A DNA stretch of 64,000 nucleotides from Amphiura filiformis (Eukaryota; Echinodermata; Ophiuroidea; Amphilepidida; Amphiuridae): assembly GCF_039555335.1 (NCBI RefSeq), contig NC_092628.1, positions 81,308,315 to 81,372,314 on the forward strand, given 5' to 3'. Each line of letters opens with the position of its first letter. Positions within the stretch are counted from its first letter, which is position 1. Of this stretch, positions 2,128 to 62,037 are shown in pieces. Both the position numbers and the translations under genes were made by a program. Under the pieces are notes generated by a model. The model was given only the letters and a program-made list of their open reading frames with translations, ran no database searches and was not told the DNA's origin.

Positions 2128-2430
2128 GGCTGGGCGCCGTGGCGTGCGTCTGTAATCCAGCTACTTGGAAGCCGGGGTTGGTGGATCGTTTGAGCTCGGG
2201 AGCCCTGTTGGTAGTTGCTCTATGGCGATCGGGCGTCCGCACTAAGCTCGGCATCGATATGGTTGGCTCGGCGGAGGCTAGGACAACCAGGTTGTCTAAG
2301 GAGGGACGAATCGGCCCAGGGCGGAAACGCAGCAGGCAAAAGTCCCCATGTGGAGCAGTAGTGGGATTGCGCTCGTGAATAGGTAGCTGCTAGCAGCCCG
2401 GACAATATAGCGGGACCCAATCCTTTTTTT
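2128..2430 (+). ncRNA. 7SL RNA gene (signal recognition particle RNA), complete
   Basis: A stretch of about 300 bases aligns by eye from end to end with metazoan SRP (7SL) RNA. The 5' end reads GGCTGGGCGCCGTGGCG, followed by the Alu-domain segments TGTAATCCAGCTACTTGG and GGATCGTTTGAGCTCGGGAG. The S domain then follows, with GCGATCGGGCGTCCGCACT, the helix-6 region with a GGAG loop, CCAGGTTGTCTAAGGAGG and the SRP54-binding helix 8 (GGCCCAGG, a GGAA tetraloop, AGCAGG). The 3' half of the Alu domain closes with GACAATATAGCGGGACCC. A T-run at about 2424-2430 is a typical RNA polymerase III terminator. Length matches the roughly 300-nt family norm. The RNA scaffolds the SRP that targets ribosomes to the ER. 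No poly-A tail or flanking duplication is seen, so a true gene is more likely than a retrocopy, but a pseudogene cannot be excluded without comparing all copies in the genome. Confidence 0.93.
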
Positions 2431-8712: not shown

Positions 8713-11700
8713 TCATAATCCGTATGTTTTGAGTAGCGCTTCTGGAGATGGTTCTCTACCTCGAAACTGTTTGAAGACATCCATTGGATGTGTACCACCC
8801 CCTAGTGATAGTACTGTGTCACGAAACCTGTAACATACAAATAAAAAGAAAAAATCTTGAATAGGTTAATGTGCTTCATATAGAGACATTCTTAGGTAAA
8901 AAGTATACTATGGGACTCCATATTCAGAAATGAGTTCTAATCAGTGGCAGAATTTTTGATCAAAATTGCTCCAAAAAGTGGGAAATTTCCTAATTTTGGG
9001 TTTTACTGGGGAAAACTGGGGGGGCAAGAGTTCTGACTGGGGCATTTTCCTCCCATGCCCCCACCTCCGGCGGCGCCACTGGTTCTCATAGTTGTCACGG
9101 TTGTCACACAAATGAGTCTGATGTCAATCAAAACCAAACTTCAGTTTTCTATTTTATTACACGGGCCATTCACAGAGCTTTAATTTTCTGAACTACATTA
9201 TAATTAGACTTATGGTTCCAGAGATATGGTCATTTTAAAACTACAAAGGAAGTTGAATACTATCTCAAATCAGTATTCCTGACATCAATTGCTTGATCTC
9301 ATAACAAATGACTAACCATTATTTTCACATTACAACACTTTATCATTTAGTAGACATGAATACTTTAATTCCATTACATGCGTGCGTCTGTGTAACATGA
9401 CTCTCGCGATATCCTAAGTCTCGCGCGCATACTTCATGCGCGACATGGCTACACTGTTAAAAAAGCAAAGAATAAACTGGTCTACTTTTCAGTAAGATTA
9501 TCGAACTAAATTCCAAAAAGTTTACGAACAAGTCGGAGGATAATATAATTTATGTTCACAAAGGATAAAATTGTTACCCCGTTTGTTCTCATGAAATACA
9601 GGAAAATATCTACGGTCTATCTAGTATCCACTTTTAACAGCAGCTGTCCATTCACTATAATAAAAGTACAATATCTGTGTAATATGAGTGGGAAATTAGG
9701 TTCTGGGCACAATTTGTCAATTACCTTGCATTGTAGGTGGAGGCAAGAATTTTTAATACATGTCACCAAAATACACCAGATCCAAATGCATCTCCCAAAA
9801 TTTTCAAGATGTTGACCATGAGCCAATCAAAAATGTATATATATATATATACAGGTCGAAGTTCTGCGTGACGCTGGTTATTTATATGGTCGACAGTTGG
9901 GTAAACAAAGTTTGGCACAGCGCCTGATAATAATGTAAAATACATTAAATTACACGACGTTTCGGGTCTAACCCTTTTACAAGTGTGAGCAAATGCAATG
10001 ATACCTTACAGAAGCAAGCACAAAATGTGTGAGGCCATGAACAAAGGGAAGAAAAAAAACCCATTGGTGATGACCAAACACTTACATAATGAGATAAAGA
10101 AAGAACAAACCAAGCAAAAAGGAGAAGAAAACATCCTTTGTGCCTGACAGAACTTGTATACAAAAACAGTGGTAAGTGAGAAAATGATTACAACTACAAA
10201 AAGTAGTACAGCGGATACATGATAAAATAAAGCAAAATTGTCTAGAGCCGCAGATACATGAAAAACAATGAGTCATAAGCTAAAAGTGTCAAATTTGCTG
10301 TTTAAGCCACCAGGCTGAACAGTGCCGAGCTTGAAAATGAGTTTATGTTCTGCCATAATGAGATCCTTGTTGTTTCCTCTGGCATTGATGGCAGCGGTTA
10401 CCTTGATGTCGTTGATGGTACATGTGGAAGGGGTTAAAATGCGCGCTACAGGAAAACCATCAAAATTGCATTTGATTGACCGCAGGTGTTCAGTGAAGCG
10501 GTCAGCAAGTCTTCTGCAGGTTTCCCCGACATAGAGGATGTTGCAACGGGTGCAGATAATGATATAAACTAGACTACAAGAAGTGCAAGTGAAAATTTCA
10601 AAAATTTCAAGACTCTCCAATCTGATCCCACCACGTCAGAGATCTTCAAGGATCCTCCGGTCACTGCTTTCAGAAGAGCTCGTAACATTTCGAACCATCT
10701 TGTTAGAGCATCTCATCCGCTCTGCCCAACACCGCACACTACCAACATCGGCACATACCGCTGCGGCAGACGTCGCTGCAACACTTGCAATTATGTCACC
10801 ATGGAATCATACCATCAAATCCAGGGTCCCTCCGGACACTTCAACATAGCCAACCATTTCACTTGCACTTCTTGTAGTCTAGTTTATATCATTATCTGCA
10901 CCCGTTGCAACATCCTCTATGTCGGGAAACCTGCAGAAGACTTGCTGACCGCTTCACTGAACACCTGCGGTCAATCAAATGCAATTTTGATGGTTTTCCT
11001 GTAGCGCGCATTTTAACCCCCTTCCACATGTACCATCAACGACATCAAGGTAACCGCTGCCATCAATGCCAGAGGAAACAACAAGGATCGCATCATGGCA
11101 GAACATAAACTCATTTTCAAGCTCGGCACTGTTCAGCCTGGTGGCTTAAACAGCAAATTTGACACTTTTAGCTTATGACTCATTGTTTTTCATGTATCTG
11201 CGGCTCTAGACAATTTTGCTTTATTTTATCATGTATCCGCTGTACTACTTTTTGTAGTTGTAATCATTTTCTCACTTACCACTGTTTTTGTATACAAGTT
11301 CTGTCAGGCACAAAGGATGTTTTCTTCTCCTTTTTGCTTGGTTTGTTCTTTCTTTATCTCATTATGTAAGTGTTTGGTCATCACCAATGGGTTTTTTTCT
11401 TCCCTTTGTTCATGGCCTCACACATTTTTTGCTTGCTTCTGTAAGGTATCATTGCATTTGCTCACACTTGTAAAAGGGTTAGACCCGCCACGTCGTGTAA
11501 TTTAATGTATTTTACATTATTATCAGGCGCTGTGCCAAACTTTGTTTACCCAACTGTCGACCATATATATATATACACATATCTATCTATGAAGAACTTA
11601 TTTCCACCACCATATGTGTGATGTGTCCCAGTTACTTTGACAAGTTTGACATTAGCAAAAATGAGTTGTACCATCAACAAGCCATTATTTACCACAACAA

Positions 11701-29720: not shown

Positions 29721-31902
29721 ACACAGGGTATACCCTCTCAGTGTAACAATACGTTCATATTTTTTTATATTTTTTACACAAATAATGAAATTTTTCTGAA
29801 ATAATGAATTTTTCAATACTGATATATTTTTTTATGGAAATGTTACAGTATGGCTTCAATTTATTTTAAGAATTACAGATTTTGTCAAAAATACATCCAT
29901 GCAAAGGTGACGAATTCGACACTCGCTGGCTTTATTTTAAGCTAAAAACACCTAAAAACGGACAAGGTTTTCTTGAATTGCAATTTACCTTTTAATAGAG
30001 CATGCTCTTCGAGCGTGTCTTCGACACTCATATCTACACAGAATTCTCGTTACTGATGAACTCATTTTGCGACAAACATGCACAAAAGTTTCAGCAAAAA
30101 ATGTCACGAAGGCAAGACTTCGCTGAATTCGGCACCTTGTCTTTTTAACCTTTGACCCGTCAAGTGAAAGCAAAATTATATGGTTTTATTTATTTTTTAT
30201 TCAACAAGTATCGTGTTTAAAATTATTGAACATAACAAAATGGTGAAATATATAAAAATATATATGTTTTGCATGTAATTTATTTAAATTTAAGTCTATT
30301 AAAATACATCAAATAATAATAATATTTTAAAAAGAGCGAGTGAGGATGTTTTGCTGCCAATCATCCCATCATCCTGACCAAGGAAGATGAATAGAGCACG
30401 AAGTGCGATGGAATTGCAACTCCGATCATCGATGTGAGGTCAGCGATCGTCACGCTTGCAACATGTGGACGTAGATGGCAGCAGCATTTTTCTTTAATTA
30501 GCATATTCGTGACGTCATGTTAACGTAAGTCTCCACAGCACTACGCATATTTTTTTTAGGTAGCTTTTAGTACTATCGTGGTGGCAGCAGCATTTTTCTT
30601 CACTTTTCTAAAATGGCGGCGCCCAGGGTTTAATGACAAATTCTTCAATTTATCAATATTTCATGAAAATTTACCAAACAAACGGATACAGTAATGACAG
30701 CTAATATTTAAAGTACATGTATAAATGGTCACAGTTATAAAAGAAAGAATATAAGAAACATAAACAAATGAATTGTAGCAATATTCAATATTAATGGCAG
30801 CACCGCTGTTCATATCGCCCCACAGCGATAATTCAGTTATAGCGCCGCCGTAGACTTATCCGTAAATGCGCAGTCGTTTATACTATCACGAGAGGGCGGG
30901 TACAACATGGCGATATCCTTGTAACAATGTAAACACGGAAGAGAGCAGACAAACAAGCTGCAAACTTCAGTTTTTCGTCATTTTAGCAAAAGTTACTTGA
31001 TATACTGAAAAGAATACATTTCAAGCAACTAGTCAGTATATTTGGTTTCGATGTGGGGATAAATTTTTGCAAATGTGATCGGTCTAATTTGCGCCAAGTC
31101 CGTATGCATCCACCATTGCCGGTACACAGTAACGCTACACATTCGTCGATACTCGCGGTACTGACTGATTGATGGTAAGTTTTTACTACCTTGCGTGGTT
31201 TACATTTCATATCTATTTGTATTAAATAAAAATTTAACATATAAACAAGCTTGTCTATAAGCTGAAATCAGGGTAGCAGATTATTTATGTTCTCAAATAA
31301 GCGTGTATATTAAGGCATTATTTTAGCACAAAGGTAAAGTTTCCGAATTTTGCAACCTTGTCATTAATACGGAAAGGCACAACATAAACCGAATTTAATT
31401 TTGAATTAACATTAAATTGGATAGTAAGCATTAAGTTTATATATATTTAAACAATTCTCATTGTAAAATCATTAGGGTAGTAGCATTATTAAAGCATGAT
31501 ATTCAGATTTTGTAACAAAAAACCATATAAAAAATATAGTACATTGTAGGCCTACCGTACGTATATGTTCATGTGTTGAATCAGTTCAAATTTCAAACGT
31601 TTGAGGAGTGTGAGTTCCAATTAGATAATGCTGTATAATCCCTAAACAGGATATTTATGTGATGAAGAGTGACCAACACTTACTCTCAGTTCAAGTATTT
31701 TGCTTTAGTTTTAGTATCGGTATTGTAAAAGTATCCAAATCCAAAAAGTAGGCCTACAGTAAAATGAGTAAATTTTTGATTGTCAAAGTTGTACGCTGAT
31801 GATAGATTTTGATTTACATCTTTGCATCAGTCACAGAATGGTATTGCTAATTTGTTCTTTTTTTTTACTTTGCAATTACTTATCAGATACTTATCGATTG
31901 AG
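29721..31902. other. Upstream region of the RAG1-like gene, possible non-coding first exon
   Basis: Mostly AT-rich. Near 30840-30920 the base composition rises in G+C (GCGCCGCCGTAG, GAGAGGGCGGGTACAACATGGC). A strong donor (GATG/GTAAGT) lies at 31174/31175, consistent with a 5' UTR exon spliced to about 31887. A doubled GGCAGCAGCATTTTTCTT (30478 and 30583) is the only repeat noticed. Confidence 0.4.
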
Positions 31903-32436
31903 ATGGAGGAGCATCGTAAAGCACTCAAATACTGTGCCGCATATGCGCAAACGTTAGTGAAACAGCCATTGGCGAAATATTACTTCGGGTACGACAAGAA
32001 GAGCTACGATGTCAGAATTAAGGATGTTTATAATATAGACATTACCCTTGATAACGCCCTAATTCACCCCAAATATATCTGCAAAACATGTGTCGCTTCA
32101 TTGAGTCGTCCTAGTTCGTCAAAATTCATTATGCAATGGGAGCCTCACACAGATTCATGTGTAGCATGTAATTTAATCACAACCACACAGCTGGGTGGTC
32201 GCCCACCCAAGCCGCAAGTAGTTGCAGCTAAGAGGAGAAAAGCTACAAAAAAGCATCAAGATGAGATGGACAATCTAGAATCAGCATGCAATACCATAAT
32301 GAACTACCAACAGCAGCATGCACTACCAACAGCAGCTGAACCCACAAAAAAACTCAAACTTGTGGCTACAAGCATCATCAAGGGAATTATACAGTCAACA
32401 AATTCTGAAACCGTTGAACTGCCAACAGGTGGTCCA
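31903..32436 (+). CDS. First coding exon: RAG1-like zinc-binding N-terminal module plus basic linker
   Basis: This 178-codon exon begins at ATG 31903, just after a probable acceptor (polypyrimidine then ATCAG near 31886). It ends at CCA before GTAAGT at 32437. Residues about 15-60 are KYCAAYAQTL...VRIKDVYNIDI, then IHPKYICKTC, then MQWEPHTDSCVACN. Four cysteines and two histidines are spaced as in the part of RAG1 just before and within its zinc dimerisation region. The C-terminal half is rich in K/R (GRPPKP, AAKRRKATKKH) and suits DNA binding or nuclear import. A plausible non-coding first exon ends at a strong donor (GATG, then GTAAGT) at 31174/31175, so the mRNA may start near 30.9-31.1 kb. 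Confidence 0.82.
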
Positions 32437-35400
32437 GTAAGTATACTGTGCTTGTAAATTGTGTCAACTAAATGGGTTCAAGTCACAATATTATCATAAA
32501 ATTGCTTCCCCCTTTTCAGCCTGCCCCTCTTGTCTTGCCGAAATTGCTTGCCCCACCCCCCCATTTTTTTTGGCTCATCAAAATTTCTTGCTCCCCCAAT
32601 TTAACCCTCCACCAGGGCTCATAATTATTGCACAGCCCGCAAGATCTATTTTATGTCATTTATTTTCTTATGTTGTGTTTTTTTTACTGTCCTCTACCAT
32701 AGACAACAGACAGGTCTAAATACTTTTAGTAGTGCAGACGCACCGGGACTCAGATTCGACCAGAATCGATTCTCGTAATGATTGCTATATACTAGAATCC
32801 ATTTCTTTCATTGAATCATGCAGTACCGTAAGTAAAGCGACTGAGATAGGAAGTTTTTAAAAATTCAAGTACCGGTACTAACTAGCCCCTCCCTGATTAT
32901 ACTGGAGTGGTTACATCTATATATTTACCAGCAGGTAAAATATAATTGTTTATAAATTATTTGCAGAAATTTGTGCTGAAAAAGGTGGTAAAGCCTAAAG
33001 TCGCGAGCAACAAGGCCAGTCAACAAACAGTGAGGGACAGGAGGAAGAGACTGGAACGAGATATTCAAGATATAAGCAGTCCAACGAAAGATGACGCAGA
33101 GGCTGCCACATTCCAGCTTGCAGCGCTACTTAAAGGAAAAACGAATCAGGAGCTAAAGGAGATGATGATAGAATACGGTCTCCTGAAAATTAGAATCCCC
33201 AGTGGCCACGAATTAGCCTTAAAAACCCAGATGGGATGGAGCTGGGATGAGCTTAGGAAGCTCAAAAGGTATTTGCTGTATTTTCATTCAGAGCAAAATT
33301 AAATGCATTTATATAATAATTTTCAAAACGTACAATGTGCTGTTGATAATGAATGAAAAAATTTGATATGAGGCTGACGAAAAAAGAAAACCCTATTACG
33401 GGTCCGACTGACCCAGATTTTGAACAAATTGGGGAACAAATTTTTCCTGTACAAATGAATGCCGACCCAAATTTCAGAAATTTTAGGAACAAATTTTTTT
33501 TTTTTGTATTTTCTCAAATTGCAAATTATTTAAAGATTTTAGTTGGTCATTTCAAAAAAAAAAAAAAAAAGGCTGACCGGCCGACCCAACTTGAAAGGTC
33601 CACCCACCCGTAGAGCAGGATTTCTTTTTTTCGTCGCCTTACTGTAAATACCTTCCATCTTCAAAATAGACAAATAAAATATACCGTATATATGATTTAT
33701 ATGAAAAGTGAAAACTGTACTTGTAACTGAGCAATCCATTTGATCTCCAGTATGCAGGCATCATACATTACACAATGTACAAGTACCTTAATTTTTGATT
33801 TATGTTACAGATGGTTGTGTGCTTACAAAATTCACATGCAGTGTGAGGCCAAAACTAGACAAGCAAAGAAAGATATTTTACAGGGTGAGTACTACACTTT
33901 ATAAAAATAGCTGATAATAATCATGGCTGCCAAAAAGACACTATGAATGATTTTGAACTATAGATTGATGAATGTTTAATAATGTTATTTTTTAATCAGA
34001 TCCTGGAGACCAAAAAACCTTGTTCTATAGGCGGAAGGACCAGTTCTTCATTTTTATTTTTTAGCAAATGCATACACAATATTTTATGATTTTAATAAAA
34101 GTGGTTTTTTTTTCATACAGGGTGTAACATACAGAAAGAGATGCTACCTTTCTTTTTTATTTTAAATTACCAAGAAACCAAGAAAGATGAGACTATTACA
34201 AAACTGGCCCCATGGTTTCCATACCAGATCTACAAGACCACATCACACACACACTTGATGAGCTAGACAGGTTAGTTGATCAGCTTTGTTGTTGTTTTAT
34301 TATTTTAAGCCTTTTTTAACTGCTCTGGAAAGTACATTGTAAGAAAACATCTCTCCTCTCTTTTTCTCCTACCCTCTTTCAGTATCCCTAGCTCTCTTGG
34401 ATAACTTTACATTTATCATACCGTATAATATTATATCCTTTTTTTTTAAACCAGGGTTGATCTTCTTACATGGGATGATGCTATACCAAACGATGAGATA
34501 TGGGTGAAGATAGGTGGAGATGGTGGCGGTGGAACAACTAAATTCTACTACCAGATTCTAAACACAGAGAAGTGCAACTCCAGAAGAAACAGCACAGTAT
34601 TCTGCGCATATGCAGCGGATGAATCACTACCAAATCTGCACATAGCATTGGACAGGTTTGTGAATCAAGTTAATGGACTGCTGACTGCTACATGGAGGTA
34701 ATAATTCATACTAAGGCGTAAAAAAAAATTTTGATTGGCGTAATCCGACCAGCACTAAAATATGTCTGACCCTGACTTTTTGTTTTTTTGCAAAAAAAAA
34801 AAAAAAAAAAAATGTTCCAAGGCCAAGGCCTTTATTAATTGCAATTTACAGCTTTAAGAGTAAAAAAAATCCTACCTACTTACCTACCTAAATGTTTTTA
34901 ATGTTACACCAATCAAACAATTTTTAAGGCCTAATTGACTGCCTAGATTTACACACTCACATCCCCTCATGAGCTAACGGCCTAACGCAGGTAAATATTT
35001 ATACTGTCAAGTCAATGCAGTTCAAAACATGAGAGTTAGCGGTTGCCATCTTTATGTGTCTGTTTTATTGTGAAAGGTAACTTCCAGAACATGCACACAT
35101 TTATTGTATTAAAATAAAATAAGAAAACAATTCCCAAAGATATAAAAATTGATCCAAATTTATGTTTCTTTCAATTTTTCACATCACAGAGACAAGAAAA
35201 TCGTTCCATGGTTGTGTGCCGACTACCTCCTAATATGCAAACTTCTTGGATTGCAGGGTGCTTCAGGTAAGACATTATCATCTGAGATGTATAATTTGAC
35301 CAATGTACAGATTAATACACCAACTTGATAATGAACAGCGCAATTCTTGTTTTTAAACTTAATGGTATTTTCACTCAATAATGCTTTATTTATTTCAGCA

Positions 35401-37830
35401 ACATATCCATGTATGTTGTGCCATGCCAAGAGAGGGAAGCTAGACGAAGCAGAAGAGGATGAACAAAGATCTCTGGAATCAATTCATACAGATTTTGAAA
35501 GAGTGGAAGCAAAGGCATTTACAGTAGAGGCCAAACAACAGAACCATAGCGTATCACACCAACCCTTCTTCAAAATTCCCCTTGAGCAGGTACATTAATT
35601 TTGAACACTGCATGAGATGAAAAATGAGATACCGTACTTAAAAGTGATCGTATCATCGTATGTTGACTATGTTCGTCATTGTTCGATCTATTGTAATATT
35701 AACTTATAGTTATACCATATATTTAAAATTCTGCAGTTCATGTTAAAATTACAAATTTTTACAATGTACATGTTTGCTTGTTTGGTCTGGAACAGTAGAC
35801 TCATTAATTGCCAAATGTGACTGTCAACTTTTATTTTAATATCTTTTTACAGGTTTGCATACCAGGGCTACATGTAAGCTTGGGACTATGGAATAAGTTT
35901 TACAGCCTGCTAGAAAATGATGTGGGGAAACTTGGAAACCTGATTGTTGATAAACTTGCTGAAGAGGATGAGGTAGGTATCACACATAATACATATAACT
36001 GGTGTTGTATGTATTTTTTGTTGTTGAAAAAAATGAAGTCAATCATTAAATGAGCAACAAAACCTGACCAAGTTAGGAAAATATAATTGTACCGGTACAT
36101 AATACCAAGCCAGCACTTGTCAAATGTCATATAAAATCATACAAAAATCAAACAAACCGAACACTACATCAACTTATTTGAAAAATGATGTTGTTTCTCT
36201 CCATCATAGGGTTGGCATGATAGCTCAAATAAATACATTTTATGCCATGCACCTGGACATTTAATTTATTACTTAAGTGTTTATTTAAAACAAAATATTT
36301 ATATTTATTCAACAGAATTCTGAAGAAGAAAAAAACCAAGTTTGGCAAACATGTCAAGGTAACCAGGGAGTTACTGAAGCAAGTTAGGAGCAAAGAAGAT
36401 GAAGCTCAGAAGATAAGAGAAGAGTATATTGACTTGGAATGTCAGCTTGTGTATCAGTCTTTGAGTTCAACAGTATCACCCACACAAGAGCAAAATAAGG
36501 CCATATCCAAACTGCACAGTCAGGCTCAGAAATTGGTAAGGAAAGAGAGAAATAGAGGGAGAGAGTCAGGATGAAAGAGTGTAGGAAAGAGAAAAAAACA
36601 AGATTTATAAAAGTAGGCCTACATTACTAACCCATTTTTATTCATTTATATTATATAATTTTACAGGAAAAGGAGGCTGAAGATATCAAGCTGGCAAACA
36701 AACTCGATGAGGCAGTAAATCCACTGATGAACAAGATGGATGAGAGCTTAAAGAAATTTAAGGTTCGAAGACAAGCCTGGTACTCGGGGACATTCGTGGG
36801 TAACCACGTCAACAAGTGTTTGAAGGTATTAAAACAAGATTACTTGCTATAAGGTGAAAATAAATAATTTTTTTTGGCAAATTAATAAAAATCCCCAAGA
36901 TCTGTAAATTTATACTTTGAAAATGTATGTTGAAATACAAAAAAAAAAATTCTGATGATAAAGATCCATGTCTGAATTTTAATTGCAGAAGGAGAACTAC
37001 AGTCAACTACTAGATGACATATGCATTGCTGCTAAGGAGATCTGCCCTGAGGACGAGGTCATTGACTTTGCCGAAATGATCAAATTGAAGTACACACGAC
37101 TGTTTGAGGCCTTCAGCTTGTGCCACCAGGGCTACAGCAAATCTGAGTCAATCTCCACTGCAGATCTGTCCAGACTTGGTTGGTACATTGCATACTGGTA
37201 GTCATTATATAAGTTTATTTATGGCCCCCCAACAAGTGTTTGTGAACGGTCCCTTATGATCCAAAATTGGAACATTTTTGGAAAGTATGTTTTGCCAAAA
37301 AAATCTTTGGTGGCATTTTAGGGTACAGTAATTTTAGCCTCCAGAGAAGAATACAAAACACATGACCAACCAACCCTACTTGAAAGGTCTGTCCTCCCAT
37401 AAAATATTTTTTGTTTTTTGTTTTTTTTCATTTCCTTACATGTGTATTAATTTTTTTAGTGTGGCATCTGGACATTGTAGCCCTATCTACATTTAACATA
37501 TTTATCAATGATCTATTTACTTTTGCAGAAATCAACATACACAACTTAGCTGGCTACTACAAGGATACATTTGGAGGTGGCAAATTTACACCAAAATTCC
37601 ACCTGCTGTTACATCATGTAACAGATTTTATTCAGAGAACAGGAGTTGGATTGGGAAGATGGGGAACAGGGTGGTGAACAACTGCACCACAATTCAATGT
37701 AATTGGCAGAAGAATGCAAGGAGTCAAGAATGTGAAGGGGGAGGATCCAGAGCTGCATCATTTAGGTAGTGTGATGGAAGAACATCTCATCAAGGTCAGC
37801 CCGGTAACACGCAAAATGATTGAGGAGTAA
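31903..37830 (+). CDS. RAG1 N-terminal-like / DDE transposase-like gene, about 12 exons, probably decayed in two places
   Basis: Exons read by splice sites: 31903-32436, 32967-33268, 33811-33884, 34121-34270, 34455-34697, 35190-35266, 35399-35589, 35853-35972, about 36326-36535, 36667-36825, 36989-37178 and 37529-37830 (TAA). This gives about 850 residues. Exon 1 carries IHPKYICKTC and, about 20 residues on, MQWEPHTDSCVACN, matching the IHP-CxxC and MEWHPHTPSCxxC zinc region of vertebrate RAG1. A basic GRPPKP AT-hook-like stretch follows. Later exons give WVKIGGDGGGG (candidate first acidic residue), YPCMLCHAKR (CxxC, compare RAG1 CTLC), IPGLHVSLGLWNKFYSLL, GTFVGNHVNKCL, and PKFHLLLHHVTDFIQR. 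Exon 34121-34270 is one base out of phase (or begins at about 34192). The last exon has an in-frame TGA at 37675-37677 inside the motif that should read EQGGEQLHH in another frame, after which the original frame resumes to TAA. Sea-urchin and molluscan N-RAG type transposons are the known relatives. A domesticated gene or a decaying transposon are both possible. Confidence 0.8.
32497..32638 (-). mobile_element. Partial PIF/Harbinger-type MITE (GGGCTGTGCAATAATTATGA family)
   Basis: Read on the minus strand it starts GGGCTGTGCAATAATTATGA followed by GCCCTGG and G-rich GGGGGCAAG / AATTTTTGG units, as in the complete copy at 43325. It lies in the first coding intron of the RAG1-like gene. Confidence 0.8.
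34715..34931. mobile_element. PIF/Harbinger-type MITE (TTTGATTGGCGTAA family), copy 1
   Basis: Ends GGCGTAAAAAAAAATTTTGA and CAAACAATTTTTAAGGCC are inverted repeats, with TAA on both sides (34712-34714, 34932-34934). It lies in an intron of the RAG1-like gene. Copies 2 and 3 are at 50788 and 54141. Confidence 0.8.
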
Positions 37831-37879
37831 ATTGATACAGAACAACTACTTTTTAGACAGGTTTTTCCTTTTTCATGTG

Positions 37880-38640
37880 TGACTGTATGTTAATTTGAAT
37901 ATGATGTATAATATATATTATTTATATGTACATGTATGTATAATGTAAATAACTTGTAAATAAATGAAAAATGTATAAATATGTATATAGCACTTGTATA
38001 AAAGTAATGTATTGGTATGAATGAAATAAATACATGTAAATAATGTATAGTGATGTATTGTATAATAATATATAATGTATGCAATGTATATAATATTAAA
38101 TGTATATAATCATATTTTTGTATGTATATAGCTATAATGCAATAAATACATATGTATATAATGTTTATAATGTATAATAATAATTAATGTATACATTTAC
38201 TGTATAATATTAATAATGCATAATAATGTATAGCCTAATGGACGCACTAAATATTATAAATATACAGGTATAAATGCATGTGTATACAAATGTATGTACA
38301 ATTGTAAATATTGTTATTGTAGAAACTGTAATTAATAATGTATATATCTTTATGTAAATATTTATATCATAAGCATTTAGGCCTATAATTGTAAGCATAT
38401 TTATGTAAATATTTATTTGTATATCCTATAGGCCTCAATAGAGATTTATATTGTAAGATAATAGAATGTACATGCACATGTATATAGTGTAAACAATGTA
38501 CATACAGAACATATTATTATACATTTCTTTATTATGTATTATAATAATAATAATGATAAATAATATTGTGTATATTTGATGTAAAGTTTCACCATGATTG
38601 TATTTTTGCCAAATGTATAATACTATTATAATTATAATTA
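37880..38640. repeat. Low-complexity AT-rich tract (TGTATATAATGTA-like)
   Basis: About 760 bp made almost entirely of TGTATA, TAATAATA and ATGTATAAT units with no clear period. It follows the stop of the RAG1-like gene by 50 bp and may include its 3' UTR. Confidence 0.8.
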
Positions 38641-39036
38641 ATTGGCATGTTGAAATTTTTAATAATATTTTTCAAACTTGACAACAACAAAAATGCACTC
38701 TTTTAATTGATACTTATTAAAGCTTACGTTATGTCATGGTTTTCTATCTTTCCCCTTTTCAGCCTTGAACCATGGCCATATCCAATGTATTTTTAGGTTA
38801 ACACAGTTAAAACGGTATTCCCCTCCCCCCTTCAATTCAATATGTCAAAAATGATGACACCCACATAAGTTTTTGTGAAGGCAGGAAAAAAGCCTCCAGT
38901 TGAAAGTTCTTTCAAAGGTCCTAAAAAGCAACATGACAGCCTCAAAAAATATTTTCTACTTTATACCATTGCATTGATCAGCATGAGTCATTCAAAGTCA
39001 TGAGCATGTATTAAATAATATGAGCCCCGAAAATTC

Positions 39037-39390
39037 CAGTTTAAATGATTATTCTGGTCACTTGAATCAATTGGAAATCTCACTTGAGGTTATCCACGGG
39101 CTGACATATTCCATTTCCTTAAAATGATTGTGACCACAGCTATTATCCTGATCACTTGAATCAATTGGAAATCTCACTTGATGAGGTTATCCACGGGCTG
39201 ACATCCAATTCCAGTTAAAATGATTGTGACCACAGCTATTATCCTGATCACTTGGGAGTCTTGAATCAATTGGAACTTGAGGTTATCCGGGCTTATCATC
39301 CAATTCCATAATCATGACCACAGCTATTATCCTGATCACTCGACACATGGTACTTCAAATATTACTTGTCTTGAATCAATTGGAAAACAT
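39037..39390 (+). repeat. Tandem repeat, about 3.5 units of roughly 95 bp
   Basis: Units contain CTTGAATCAATTGGAA, TCACTTGAGGTTATCC, GGGCTGACAT and GACCACAGCTATTATCCTGA in the same order, with small deletions in later copies. Confidence 0.85.
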
Positions 39391-40721
39391 GAGGTTACAT
39401 CCCCGGGTTGCATATTCATATGCCTTTATTAATCTGGGATTATTCCTAGCACAGGTAAAAACTAAGCCTTTTTATCCCGTTATGCACTGCACTCGAGTCG
39501 AATCCATACATTCAACAGGTTCAAATATTCATCACGTCCATGGCATGCGATACTTGACTTTCCACACTTTCCAAAAAAAGCAGTAGGCAAACAAACTTTT
39601 CCTTTTATGAAGTAAGTTCCCCGGAGCATGTTTACTGCAAAAATTGCGTTTAAGACAGGTTTATCTTTCTGTTAAATCAGCATTCAGTTATATTCCGTTC
39701 AGAAGTTCACCAGCAATCACCCAACATGGCCAACAGCACGATCGTGTTGCGTTGTTTAACACCGCGCCGTCACGTCTACTGTGCAAATATTAACTGTAAC
39801 ACATGTGCGCGTCTGTTCGGTAATAAAGTTTGCAACATGGACCAGACACTCTTCTCTGATTGGCTGCAGGACCGTGCATAACCCATCAAGTACGTACATG
39901 AGCTCACATGACTAGCATGTAGCATCAGCAATAATATAAACAATCAACAATAATAATACAGAATAAATACTGGGATTAGTGATGACGGTAAGTTTTATAA
40001 ATCATGAAATGGCGTTTATACGTGCGGCATGCGGGTAAATGAGGCCTGAGGATCTAAGACTCGTACAAGAAAATAAAATCTGCTACCCGGATTTCGTAAA
40101 CTGCATTGTGAAGTTGAAAGGATGTTTTAAATGAAAACTTCAAAATTTATTCCGGCTAAACCACGCCAATAATTAATTTAAAGCGATAAATACTGTGCTT
40201 TTGGTGCAAAAATATCAAAAAAAAATCAACAAATCCTTCTTTTCAAAGGGAATATTAAATATCAGAAAGTTTATGAAGTAAAAAGATATAAGCCAACAAA
40301 CTTCAACAATTATATAACCATTTTATTGATAAAAAAAAAATATAGCCGGTAAAACGCAATTCCGAGGCAAATTCAAGTTATGAGATATGATCCGATGCTC
40401 CCTGTTTATGACTGTGCGTCACTTTTAGCAACATAGCGATCAGTTTGCGCGGGAAAATAATAAAGCGGATGTGACGTCACGCGTGAACTCAGTTACGGGT
40501 CGAGAACAGCGGTGCAGCGGCCGTGACTTATCAATGGCGCTGGCGGGTATTCGGTAATACACGGGGGAAGCCGACGGTGTCGCCACCTTTTTGCATTGCG
40601 CTGGTATACGAGTTGCAACGGCCTGTCCTGACCTGAAGAAAATTGAGGAGTGTGATGAGTTGACATCAATAAAAAATATCAAGAAATTCCTCTAAATTGA
40701 AGGTCAACCTGCTAGGAAAAA
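39391..40721. other. Upstream region of EMRE
   Basis: No exon with family support. A donor-like GACG/GTAAGT near 39987 and a G+C-richer block at about 40430-40620 (GTGACGTCACGCGTG with a CRE-like TGACGTCA, CGGCCGTGACTTATC) make the latter a reasonable promoter candidate for EMRE, 100-290 bp upstream of its ATG. Confidence 0.4.
40470..40485. promoter_or_regulatory. CRE-like palindrome TGACGTCA in probable EMRE promoter
   Basis: GTGACGTCACGCGTG contains the perfect CREB/ATF site TGACGTCA about 245 bp upstream of the EMRE start codon. Function is inferred from position only. Confidence 0.4.
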
Positions 40722-41499
40722 ATGGCATCAGCTGTGCAGAAAGTTCTTACACCTGTCCTACGTTTAACATCTGTAAGTTTGACATTTTAGAACAATAAAT
40801 CAAGGACAAGGTTCTGTGTATGTGTGTAACTAAAATGTAAGCTTACTCACTGTTTAGGTATCCCAGGCGGGATCCCAGGCAAACCTTAACACATTTGCTA
40901 GTCAGCGAAATTCGCCGAAACCGGGGCCCAAACACAATGCATATTTACATAGAAATTTGAATTTTTTTCAAGAATAGGTCGGTGAAGGAAACCTACATAA
41001 ATATGTTTTCTATATTCCACTTGGAAACAGGACGGTTCGCACCCTTTCAATTTCGGACCCGTGCACTTTCGCCCCCTTTCAATTTCGGACCCGTGCACTT
41101 TCGCCCCCTTTTTAAATCGTGGGTAATGTGCTGCTGTTGATTGATGATGCACGATCGATCGCTTCAACTCCGGCGGTACAGTGGGGTGTTGTATGTGTAT
41201 TGTATTGGTTGACTGTTTAGTGTTGATTGTCTGTGTTTGCAGTACCGGTACTGAGTCCAGCGTGTACAAAAGCAAATAGTATGTTTTGTTTACCCGGGAT
41301 GTTGATGGACAGGCTATGGACTCTCGGTTCGATTGAATTTAATAGGCCTATATTATTACAATATATTAAATGTGCTTCGACTGAAGATTGGTATTCATTA
41401 TGTTTTTGATTTGTTATTTTATTTTACTTAGGCATATTTTATTTCATTTCTATTTTATTTTATTTTAGGCCTATTTATAATTTTCATATAATTATTATA

Positions 41500-43917: not shown

Positions 43918-45917
43918 CATCATCATATTATTATCATCATATTATATTATTAAATTAACTTTGTTTATATGTTTTGTGTTACTCTCCCATTGGATTTAGT
44001 GTCATACTTTCATTGTTTTTAATTTTATCAATTGCTTGTTGACACTTGTATCCTTTTGGATCCATCCTTTGGTCGTCAGTTGGAACAAAGTTCCCGCTTT
44101 TATACATATTATAATTAATAATTAAATATAAATTTATTATTATTACTATTTATTGTTATTACTATTTTTATCATTGAATTCTAATTATTTCATTATTTTG
44201 GGTAAGCCTGCTACTAAAATATCTGGCCTGTAATATATTCTGAGAAAAAAAAATCGTTCCTCTATTTTGTTTTAAAATATCCTTTCTTTCCTTCCTTCCC
44301 ATGTTTATTATGACTTAATAAGTGCATGCCCGACGGCCCAGTACTATAAACATACTACGCCGCATTGCCGGGAGTTCAAGCAATCGATCGTGCATCAATC
44401 AACAGCATGACAGCAGCACAATACCATGGTATAAAAAGGGGCGAAAGTGCACGGGTGCGAAATAGAAAGGGGCGAAAGTGCACGGTCCGAAATTGAAAGG
44501 GTGCGAACCGTCCAGCATTCCTTCACTTGACCCAAATATAATGATTTTTATGGTGATAATCAAGTCGCACATGGAATTTTAGAGGATTTTGATAGCAGTT
44601 CCATTAAAAAAAGCTGCTATCGCCATGAGACTAAGATCTAGAAACACCCCTAAATGCCGTTTTGGGGAATTTTGCTAGCAGAATCTTTTTGATGAAAGTC
44701 AATCTTTGACAAGCTGTAACTTTGTTACAGAAAGTGCTATGACAAAAATGTTTTCAGTTTTGGCTTTCTTTACTCAAGGGCTTTAATTTGATATGTAAAA
44801 TGATGCAGTTTGATGGCAAATTTGAATTCACCTAGCATACCTACACTGTTTTACATTACTCTCAATAAATTCAGTGAATTACCGGTATTATCTTTTGCAA
44901 AATTTCTTCGCAGTTTTTATTTTTGTGCAATTTGTGGCGTAAACATGAAGTCAGGTTCTGATTGGCTAGTTGAAACATGTCATCAACACATCAGCACATC
45001 ATCATTCACTGATCTATCGCGTGACGCATCACGCAGGCCTGCGTGAATAAGCAAGTTCGATAATTCAGAACAGAGTGCATTGTGGGTAAAAGTCTGTCGG
45101 GATATCACAGCCAGGCCTCGCACAGTATTTCAATGGTGACGAACTTTGCACTTTTAAAAAAACCTTTTTAATTTTTTTTTTGCCAGTTGTTGGGTCTGAT
45201 TGTCCCCATAGAACTTTTATATAACAAACAAAGATAGTTAGAACCTACGGTACCTTGGAAGTACCAACTTTGTAAATGACAAATAAAATCACAGGAATTT
45301 CCGATCAGTCAAAGTCCATTCCCACAGCCGTCTATGGGAGGATTGTGTTATTATATCCCCAAGACTGTCCAAGAATATTACCCACAATGCACTCTGTTCT
45401 GAATTATCGAATTAGCTTATACAAGTGTACAACATGTACGAGGTGTGAAAAACTGCAAAGGATCTTTGCAAAAGGCTGTACTGAAACTTCTAAACTAGTG
45501 CTGTTGTCGAGTAGAATTTTACATCGTCAAATCTCAAGATCCGACATGTCTGACATCAGCAATACATCAATAAAGTCATTTAGTCATCGAGTTAGTGTGA
45601 TTGTTTTTAAATCATTTCAGAAACTTTCATTGTAAATTTTGTAAATCGACTCCGGGATCGACTCATAAAGATTTGTGTTGCATTTTTGTTTTTATCTCTG
45701 TGTACAGCTAATAAGCCGTCCAAGCCACCAAATTGTTAGGACAAAAGTAACCACATCAACCGGGGCAATTTTACCAAGTCCATATGTCATGAGATTTGGA
45801 ATTCCTGCAGTGTGTTTATTCATCTCACCATTCATATATTTAGGGGCTACCATGAGTAAAGAAGGGGCAGCATTTCTAGAAGAAAATGACATCTTTGTTC
45901 CTGATGACGATGATTAA
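40722..45917 (+). CDS. SMDT1: EMRE, essential MCU regulator of the mitochondrial calcium uniporter, two coding exons
   Basis: Exon 1 (40722-40772) encodes MASAVQKVLTPVLRLTS and ends at GTAAGT. Exon 2 (45708-45917) follows a TGTACAG acceptor, in phase 0. The 86-residue product matches EMRE in length and order: a basic mitochondrial presequence, then TSTGAILPSP (vertebrate TRSGAILPKP), a single membrane span (CLFISPFIYLGATMS) retaining the GxxxS motif, then EENDIFVPDDDD, the acidic tail. EMRE is an inner-membrane protein that links the MCU pore to the MICU1/2 gatekeepers and is required for uptake in animals. The start has a good context (AAAAAATGG). Just after the stop, AAA/GTGAGT at 45918-45919 and TTACAG near 46250 suggest a 3' UTR intron. 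The 4.9 kb coding intron is filled with repeats. Confidence 0.94.
41495..41550 (+). repeat. (ATT)n microsatellite
   Basis: About 17 near-perfect ATT trinucleotides. Confidence 0.9.
42990..43184 (+). repeat. (TTTC)n microsatellite, about 195 bp
   Basis: Nearly pure TTTC tetranucleotides with a few interruptions, giving spurious F/L/S-rich and K/E/R-rich open frames on the two strands. Confidence 0.95.
43325..43755. mobile_element. PIF/Harbinger-type MITE, complete reference copy
   Basis: Terminal inverted repeats GGGGCTGTGCAATAATTATG and AATAATTATTGCACAGCCCC are flanked by TTA on both sides, although the flank is itself an ATT repeat. The interior has G-runs followed by GGCAAG-ATTTTTGGC units. 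Related pieces are at 4027, 32497, 56305 and 57313. Confidence 0.85.
43760..43960 (+). repeat. (ATT)n/(ATC)n microsatellite tract
   Basis: Two blocks of TTA/TTATCA repeats separated by a TTAAATTAACTTTGTTTATA segment that occurs twice. Confidence 0.9.
45056..45412. mobile_element. Foldback MITE in the EMRE intron
   Basis: TTCGATAATTCAGAACAGAG, then TGCATTGTGGGTAA, at the left has its exact complement at the right end (TTACCCACAATGCA, CTCTGTTCTGAATTATCGAA). It lies about 300 bp before EMRE exon 2. Confidence 0.85.
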
Positions 45918-60555: not shown

Positions 60556-62037
60556 CAGTGTTGTAGTCGAGGACCTCATGTCCGAGGCCAAGGCCAAGGC
60601 CAAGGACTTGGTGTCCGAGGCCAAGGCCAAGGACACAGTGTCCGAGGCCAAGGACAACCCTCCGAGGCCAAGGACTTTTGTCTCCGAGGCCAAGGCCAAG
60701 GACCAAGGACTTTCATAATAATGAACCATACTAAACCACGCCCAATCGGGGGTCATATTGTCAACATAAGGCAATTTTATGCACTTTTATACCGCTCCAC
60801 AGTAAACCTATCTATAGAACTTTATAAAATAAACATGCCTAAAATGGACTCTTTATCCTAGTTTCAACCAACAAAACCCAACTTGTTCATTACATCGATT
60901 TGTTTCTTAGTCTTAGGAACAACCCAAAAGTTTGATGAAGTCCTATAAACGAAAGTCCTTTCGCTAGAACGCTAACCCTTCCACCCTCCCCTCTCACGCA
61001 AATGTCAAATATCGAAAACTCCAACCTGTAGGCCTATGCATAGGATACAGTGCCGTCGCTATGGTGGATGGGGTGCGACAATGCTAGGATATTGATCACG
61101 TTTATGGAAGAAACAAATATTCTATTTTATTGTAAAATATTTTCAAATAAAAAAGAATCAGCTGCTCACAAAATTAACTTACAAGTTGCAGGTTGCGAGT
61201 AATGTACACTTTATTGATTTAAAATCATTCAGTAAATACTGAAATTTTATATTAAATCCTTAAAAAAGATCAACTTTGACCGATGTTTTAACGACTTTTT
61301 TTACAAACGTAATCTGACTTTTCGACTCCCTCCCTCCCTAACGCAAGGACTTTTGTTAATAGGACTTCATCAAACTTTTGGGTTATTCCTTTATCTAGAC
61401 AAGTAGTGAAGATTATAATATAACACACTTATGTGTTTGATCCGCATTTAATTCTGTGAGCTGATGAGATTAACCCAAAATAGATGAAATTAATTTGATC
61501 ACAGTTAGGCCTACCCGGTAATCGCAACATGTCCTACAGTATAGTAGCGTCCAATGAGTTTCTTAAAATATCTAAAGAACCTCTTGTGTCTATTCGATAT
61601 TCCTATTTTAGGAATCATATTAGCTGAGTGGAATTTTAATATAAAACCACATATTTGGCCTCCATGTGCATGTTTTGCAAAGAGCAAAGATGATAGTTAA
61701 GAGTGCACCAAAATATTGACAAACTGTTTTGTATACAGGTACAATAAAAAGCTATCCTTGTCATGTTTCTCTAAAAGTTTTAATTTAGAACTAAACAGCA
61801 GATCATGAGATTGTACTCTTTCACTCTTTAAACATTTGCCTGCATTTTTGATGATTTTGCCTGTCCTTGTCCGGTCCTTGTTGTCGAGGACCAAGGACTT
61901 TGAGGTCCGAGGCCAAGGCCAAGGCCAAGGACTACACGGCCAAGGCCAAGGACTACATGTCCGAGGACCAAGGACTTCAAAACCTGTCCTCGAGGAGTCC
62001 TCGAGGCCGAGGACAGTACTCGAGGACTACAACACTG
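60556..62037. mobile_element. 1.48 kb hAT-type non-autonomous element with perfect 8-bp target duplication
   Basis: Ends CAGTGTTGTAGTCGAGGAC and CGAGGACTACAACACTG are inverted repeats. CAAGGCCA occurs immediately outside both (60548-60555, 62038-62045). Subterminal arrays of AAGGCC/AAGGAC hexamers (60575-60715 and 61885-61980) lie inside each end. A second foldback (60913-61392) is nested in the middle. No transposase frame is present. Confidence 0.92.
60913..61392. mobile_element. Nested foldback inside the hAT-type element
   Basis: AGGAACAACCCAAAAGTTTG, then ATGAAGTCCTAT, pairs with ATAGGACTTCATCAAACTTT, then TGGGTTATTCCT. AACGAAAGTCC and its relatives follow inward. Confidence 0.85.

Follow-up and report, generated by a model that had tools for sequence, protein, structure and literature searches.

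Positions 31903–37830 of the 64-kb stretch of Amphiura filiformis DNA analyzed here (the window) contain an intron-rich gene whose predicted product is best read as a Chapaev-type transposase with an N-terminal Chapa domain, one further example of a published architecture. The locus is very probably a copy, or the remains of a copy, of a cut-and-paste DNA transposon of the Chapaev superfamily (CMC/CMCT group); we put the probability of this at roughly 0.85. A sequence-only reading of the same DNA had proposed that a RAG1 N-terminal-like module is joined here to a DDE-transposase-type body in one intron-rich gene. This was confirmed by Pfam profiles, and all seven peptide blocks quoted in its favor lie in open frames.

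The gene has 12 coding exons on the plus strand. The count after exon 1 is therefore 11, where about ten further exons had been estimated. All 11 introns between coding exons have GT–AG borders, and their lengths range from 131 to 542 bases. Translation presumably starts at the ATG at 31903. Upstream of it, on the same strand, the letters suggest a probable 5′ untranslated exon ending at 31172 and a probable intron of the 5′ untranslated region at 31173–31886 (donor after 31172, acceptor before 31887). The coding total is 2562 bases, which gives a product of about 856 residues when read through. About 59 stop codons per 856 codons are expected by chance from the base composition of the window; no in-frame stop is present other than those behind the frame breaks described below. 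The junction phases agree throughout the gene, save at exons 8/9 when 36315 is taken as the acceptor. Use of the AG at 36324–36325 as the exon 9 acceptor restores the frame (exon 9 start 36326).

Exon 1 (31903–32436) carries a Chapa-type zinc domain with the pattern C-x2-C ... W-x-PH ... C-x2-C. It includes the quoted blocks IHPKYICKTC (32062–32091) and MQWEPHTDSCVAC (32131–32169), and the zinc domain is followed by an AT-hook-like motif, GGRPPKP (32194–32214, plus strand), and then by a basic stretch. The profile match of exon 1 to RAG1 is significant: it matches the RAG1 importin binding family (PF12560, RAG1_imp_bd) with E=1.5e-8 and 35 bits, above the curated cut-off of 23.3, and a scan of the whole protein gives E=7.7e-8. 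The assignment to the Chapa domain was made with this RAG1 profile. All three PDB rows returned for exon 1 up to E=10 are RAG1 (best E 0.0044), as are all three for a trimmed exon 1 piece (best E 0.0036). The alignment spans residues 153–213 of mouse RAG1 (6oem_A), including counterparts of C175/C178 and C210/C213. Residues 87–217 of RAG1 are described as the central non-core domain and residues 265–380 as the zinc dimerization domain (PMC3124419). Since 153–213 falls within the former range and outside the latter, it is the central non-core domain that exon 1 matches. Of the two RAG1 regions named earlier, the one before the zinc dimerization domain is thus borne out and the one within it is not. 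The central non-core domain is reported to hold two zinc ions, to bind double-stranded DNA without sequence preference and to aid nuclear localization (PMC3124419). An AlphaFold2 model of exon 1 alone had a mean predicted local distance difference test score of 39, too poor for a fold comparison.

The later exons match a family of the DDE-transposase type. On the whole protein, DUF1280 (PF06918) is found at residues 262–429 with E=1.3e-16 and 61.4 bits (cut-off 25); on the body piece alone, E=1.4e-14. DUF1280 is described as representing the Chapaev transposases, which are placed in one clade with RAG1 (PMC3985635). The match starts in exon 2 (32967–33268), an open frame with GT–AG borders that forms the linker to the catalytic body, and exon 3 (33811–33884), also with GT–AG borders, lies inside it. 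Exon 4 (34121–34270) has one frame break. Exon 5 (34455–34697) contains a candidate first catalytic Asp in WVKIGGD (34501–34521), placed by its position in the DUF1280 match only, and exon 6 (35190–35266) a candidate second catalytic Asp in ADYLLIC. The C(2)C motif YPCMLC (35404–35421) is in exon 7 (35399–35589). Exon 8 (35853–35972) holds the LH motif, PGLHVSLG, which lines up with ALHCDIG in RAG1. Exon 9 (36316–36535, or from 36326 with the next AG acceptor) is followed by exon 10 (36667–36825), whose frame holds the quoted block GTFVGNHVNKCL, and by exon 11 (36989–37178), a part of the GT–AG gene model. Exon 12 (37529–37830) carries the H(4)H motif FHLLLHH, within the quoted block FHLLLHHV (37597–37620), and the presumed catalytic Glu in EQGGEQ. 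All these exons are on the plus strand. Hallmarks given for Chapaev are 3- to 4-bp duplications, 5′-CAC/GTG-3′ ends, DDE, C(2)C, LH and H(4)H (PMC4079192). The C(2)C (YPCMLC), LH (PGLHV) and H(4)H (FHLLLHH) motifs are all present, in the Chapaev order.

Weak RAG1-core matches are also seen in the later exons. In PDB searches RAG1 accounts for 15 of the 18 rows returned for the body (best E 0.01, against 0.46 for the next protein; best stretch in exons 6–9), for the top 3 of 11 rows returned for a middle piece (best E 0.045) and for all 15 rows returned for a separate C-terminal piece (best E 0.055). Pieces from different exons thus indicate RAG1 in the same order, though each match alone is weak. 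In the phmmer alignment to mouse RAG1 chain 6oem_A the candidate second Asp falls on residue 708, and the first Cys of C(2)C lies 19 residues past it, a distance equal to that in the aligned RAG1. In the PDB search with the C-terminal piece, FHLLLHH is placed against residues 937 and 942. The Glu of GGE aligns to residue 962; it is out of frame as assembled, and the query was joined through an X. The letters agree with those of mouse RAG1 at 708, 937, 942 and 962. We take D600, D708 and E962 of RAG1 to be catalytic, and C727, C730, H937 and H942 to be zinc ligands. None of three reversed pieces searched as controls gave a RAG1 or DUF1280 match. Chance resemblance was rejected in view of the open frame, the splice sites, the two profiles above cut-off and the order of the motifs.

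We also looked for inverted termini. An 11-bp candidate pair with a 3-bp duplication was seen. The candidate left terminal inverted repeat is CACCGCTGTTC at 30801–30811 (plus strand), preceded by CAG, and the candidate right one, at 40504–40514 (minus strand), is the reverse complement of CACCGCTGTTC and is followed by CAG. The candidate element 30801–40514 would accordingly have CAC...GTG ends of 11 bp and a 3-bp CAG duplication; TWA is printed for Chapaev3 (PMC4079192), from which the candidate CAG would differ. The pair was selected afterwards for its exact agreement over the first 11 bases. When the flanks (6 kb on each side) were put through 200 dinucleotide shuffles, 2 of these produced an exact 11-mer with a CAC head and a 3-bp duplication, and 5 did so with a CA head. 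The whole window holds only two CA-headed pairs that lie 4–15 kb apart and have a duplication of at least 3 bp. Because several settings were tried, the candidate ends are suggestive only.

Other repeats are present around the gene. A 19-nt inverted pair (31264–31282 and 40077–40095, 18/19 identical) also flanks it, with no clear duplication. This pair was ranked as less likely to form the ends, as its start is not CA. Many of the other long inverted pairs among those shown are A/T-rich. A 94-base unit is repeated in tandem about three times at 39048–39340, inside the candidate element and 3′ of the gene.

The reading frame is broken three times. The break in exon 4 is located between 34203 and 34209. 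In exon 12 the frame is broken near 37660 and again near 37690, so that the two breaks bracket the presumed catalytic Glu; the EQGGEQ block (37664–37690) is in a different frame. The copy as assembled is therefore inactive or mis-sequenced, and the breaks suggest decay or sequencing error. Introns 1, 5 and 11 hold repeats that recur in other parts of the window, beyond the candidate element. Counting the untranslated one, 3 of 12 introns contain such repeats, compared with 0 of 12 exons. Their presence inside introns suggests that the insertion is old. We infer that the copy is now old and immobile. The sequence-only reading had taken the many introns as a sign of long residence, perhaps of domestication. 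Long residence has some separate support from the intron repeats; intron richness itself is not evidence of domestication.

Several observations weigh against the assignment to Chapaev or against parts of it. The RAG1 recombinase profile PF12940 reached only E=0.0018 and 17 bits on one body piece (cut-off 25), stayed below the cut-off on two smaller pieces (E 0.0015 and 0.1) and was unlisted in the whole-protein scan at E up to 1. The best PDB E values across pieces run from 0.0036 to 0.055. Matches of similar strength arise by chance: the exon 1 piece gave Thaumatin at E 0.0031, near the weak RAG1-core values; haemoglobin (E 0.095) comes just behind RAG1 for the middle piece; and a reversed control gave SNAPC3 at E 0.0077. 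The first Asp was aligned to RAG1 in none of the searches. Visual inspection of the predicted exon 1 showed no equivalent of the RAG1 pair C110/C113. Among 47 CAC-headed pairs ranked by their 22-base matches, the candidate end pair comes 10th, and its right end is about 200 bases upstream of the presumed start of the next gene. No second copy is present within the 64-kb window.

Scans for relatives were made in viral and genome contigs. In viral contigs they gave 27 pattern stretches for the body piece and 9 for exon 1, with none confirmed; in genome contigs the body piece gave 137, again with none confirmed. These scans covered viruses and prokaryotes with patterns from one sequence, and say little about animals.

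The alternative that survives best is a domesticated host gene, that is, a Chapaev transposase that has lost mobility and is retained for, e.g., a DNA-binding or nuclease role. We consider this unlikely. In its favor are the lack of another copy in 64 kb, the 11 introns between coding exons with their intact GT–AG sites, the presence of repeats in 3 of 12 introns and 0 of 12 exons, and the absence of in-frame stops beyond those behind the frame breaks. The RAG1L genes of sea urchin provide a precedent (PMC9885083). However, the frame is broken three times, twice around the presumed catalytic Glu, and candidate inverted ends are present. Mobile relatives also carry introns. Amphioxus ProtoRAG has multiple exons (PMC9885083) and is described as retaining transposition activity (PMC8355894), and up to eleven exons are reported for maize CACTA transposases (PMC4158355). 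Introns are thus not proof of domestication, because mobile relatives have them, and the argument from introns alone was dropped. Domestication has little positive support here. A host-kept gene derived from Chapaev, with the RAG1-type N-terminal zinc domain and RAG1-like catalytic residues retained, would be a second, independent domestication of the RAG1-type architecture, from the Chapaev side, which we think unlikely; if true, it would offer a setting other than V(D)J recombination in which to study what the RAG1 N-terminus does.

An intact and perhaps still mobile Chapaev element, with the frame breaks as assembly errors, is likewise improbable. The breaks are isolated single-frame shifts, and the splice sites and motif residues are all kept. 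On the other side, the repeats in the introns suggest age, and no break was noticed in pieces of the neighboring genes, a weak and biased comparison, as the pieces (363, 86 and 211 letters) were selected as open frames. A Poisson estimate for the neighbors (0 breaks in 631 codons, 0.05 to 0.11) was not relied on, since 631 is a rough estimate.

It is very improbable that the locus is instead an element of the RAG1L/TransibSU type and so a direct relative of RAG1: despite the N-terminal RAG1 match and the aligned RAG1 residues, DUF1280 scores 61 bits against 17 bits for PF12940 (the latter on a piece, and unlisted for the whole protein), the candidate duplication is 3 bp and not 5, and TransibSU cores, reported to share >30% identity with the RAG1 core across about 600 amino acids (PMC4411706), should yield far stronger matches. 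Membership in Transib/RAG1L was rejected on the profile scores.

The locus as a Chapaev copy shares with known Chapaev elements (CMC/CMCT; DUF1280) the DUF1280 core, the C(2)C, LH and H(4)H motifs and the Chapa-type N-terminus; its candidate DDE residues, candidate CAC...GTG ends and candidate 3-bp duplication would agree with them as well. It differs in its exon number. Chapaev3 transposases are described as mostly single-exon, with two families having two (PMC4079192), whereas 12 coding exons, many by comparison, are present here. Two Chapaev subgroups are printed with a RING domain (PMC4411706); no RING or zf-RAG1 profile was found here in the whole-protein Pfam scan at E up to 1. The RING zinc dimerization domain is reported to be missing from some RAG1L proteins too (PMC7204232).

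With vertebrate RAG1 the predicted product shares a portion of the zinc domain in the central non-core region (mouse 153–213). It also has candidate counterparts of residues 708, 727/730, 937/942 and 962, which follow one another in the RAG1 order at similar spacing. Unlike vertebrate RAG1, it has no C110/C113 counterpart (by eye) and no zinc dimerization or RING profile, and similarity in the core is weak. RAG1L, ProtoRAG and TransibSU have in common with it a RAG1-like N-terminal domain, a DDE core and a multi-exon gene. In contrast to theirs, the core here is of the DUF1280 type, and the candidate duplication is 3 bp as against 5. A kelch (RAG2L) match was found in none of seven other open reading frames scanned, out of 126 listed of at least 75 amino acids. 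The N-RAG-TP element of Aplysia, credited to Panchin and Moroz (2008), is likewise a mobile element with RAG1 N-terminal-like sequence (PMC8355894, PMC2996935). Its sequence is described as wholly N-terminal-like (PMC8355894), whereas in the present gene the domain has a DDE core fused to it.

The Chapa domain is named after Chapaev and is treated as part of the RAG1 N-terminus, and Chapaev transposons with a Chapa-type N-terminus have been in print since 2015 (PMC4411706). The fusion of Chapa with a DDE core is therefore already published and is not new. Two scenarios for the origin of the RAG1 N-terminus are in print. In one, Transib recombined with a separate N-RAG-TP element (PMC8355894). 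In the other, the common ancestor of Chapaev and Transib already had the Chapa domain, and the joining of Chapa to the catalytic core is argued to predate the split of Chapaev, Transib and RAG1 (PMC4411706). The present gene, a single multi-exon gene whose splicing puts a Chapa domain in frame with a DDE core of the Chapaev type, fits the second scenario, and it would serve as an example of the joined Chapa–core form that lacks RING. As the fusion was previously reported, the gene is one more data point and is not decisive.

In the mechanism that we propose, the single spliced gene would yield a transposase with a Chapa-type domain from exon 1, a relative of RAG1's central non-core zinc domain. 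This domain would be joined, with no RING or zinc dimerization domain between, to a putative DDE core of the RNase H type whose candidate zinc ligands resemble those of RAG1. By analogy with RAG1 and other DDE enzymes, nuclear entry and contact with DNA at the element ends would be aided by the zinc domain at the N-terminus together with the basic, AT-hook-like stretch, while the C(2)C/H(4)H zinc site would brace the DDE core. The core would then cut at the CAC/GTG ends, transfer the strands and insert the element with a 3- to 4-bp target duplication.

The candidate element lies between a gene of an M3-family oligopeptidase and a gene of a small mitochondrial DDDD-family protein. Part of the former is seen as six exon pieces on the minus strand, from about 25.7 to 13.6 kb (PF01432, 3.4e-34). 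The latter, which we take to be EMRE, is on the plus strand, with a presumed first exon at 40722 and an exon ending at 45914 (PF10161, 2.1e-22). A G-protein alpha subunit gene starts near 58 kb on the plus strand (PF00503, 8.2e-38). A full-length match to the metazoan signal recognition particle RNA, a gene or a pseudogene, is present at 2129–2426 (plus strand; 264.8 bits). Two near-identical stretches in opposite orientation at 10276–11502, one with a GIY-YIG match (E=7.3e-6), are perhaps an inverted pair of retroelement fragments. Short tandem arrays with related-looking units are found in opposite orientation at 41036–41111 and 44431–44507, and AGGCCA-rich tandem repeats at 60570–60712 and 61910–61976.

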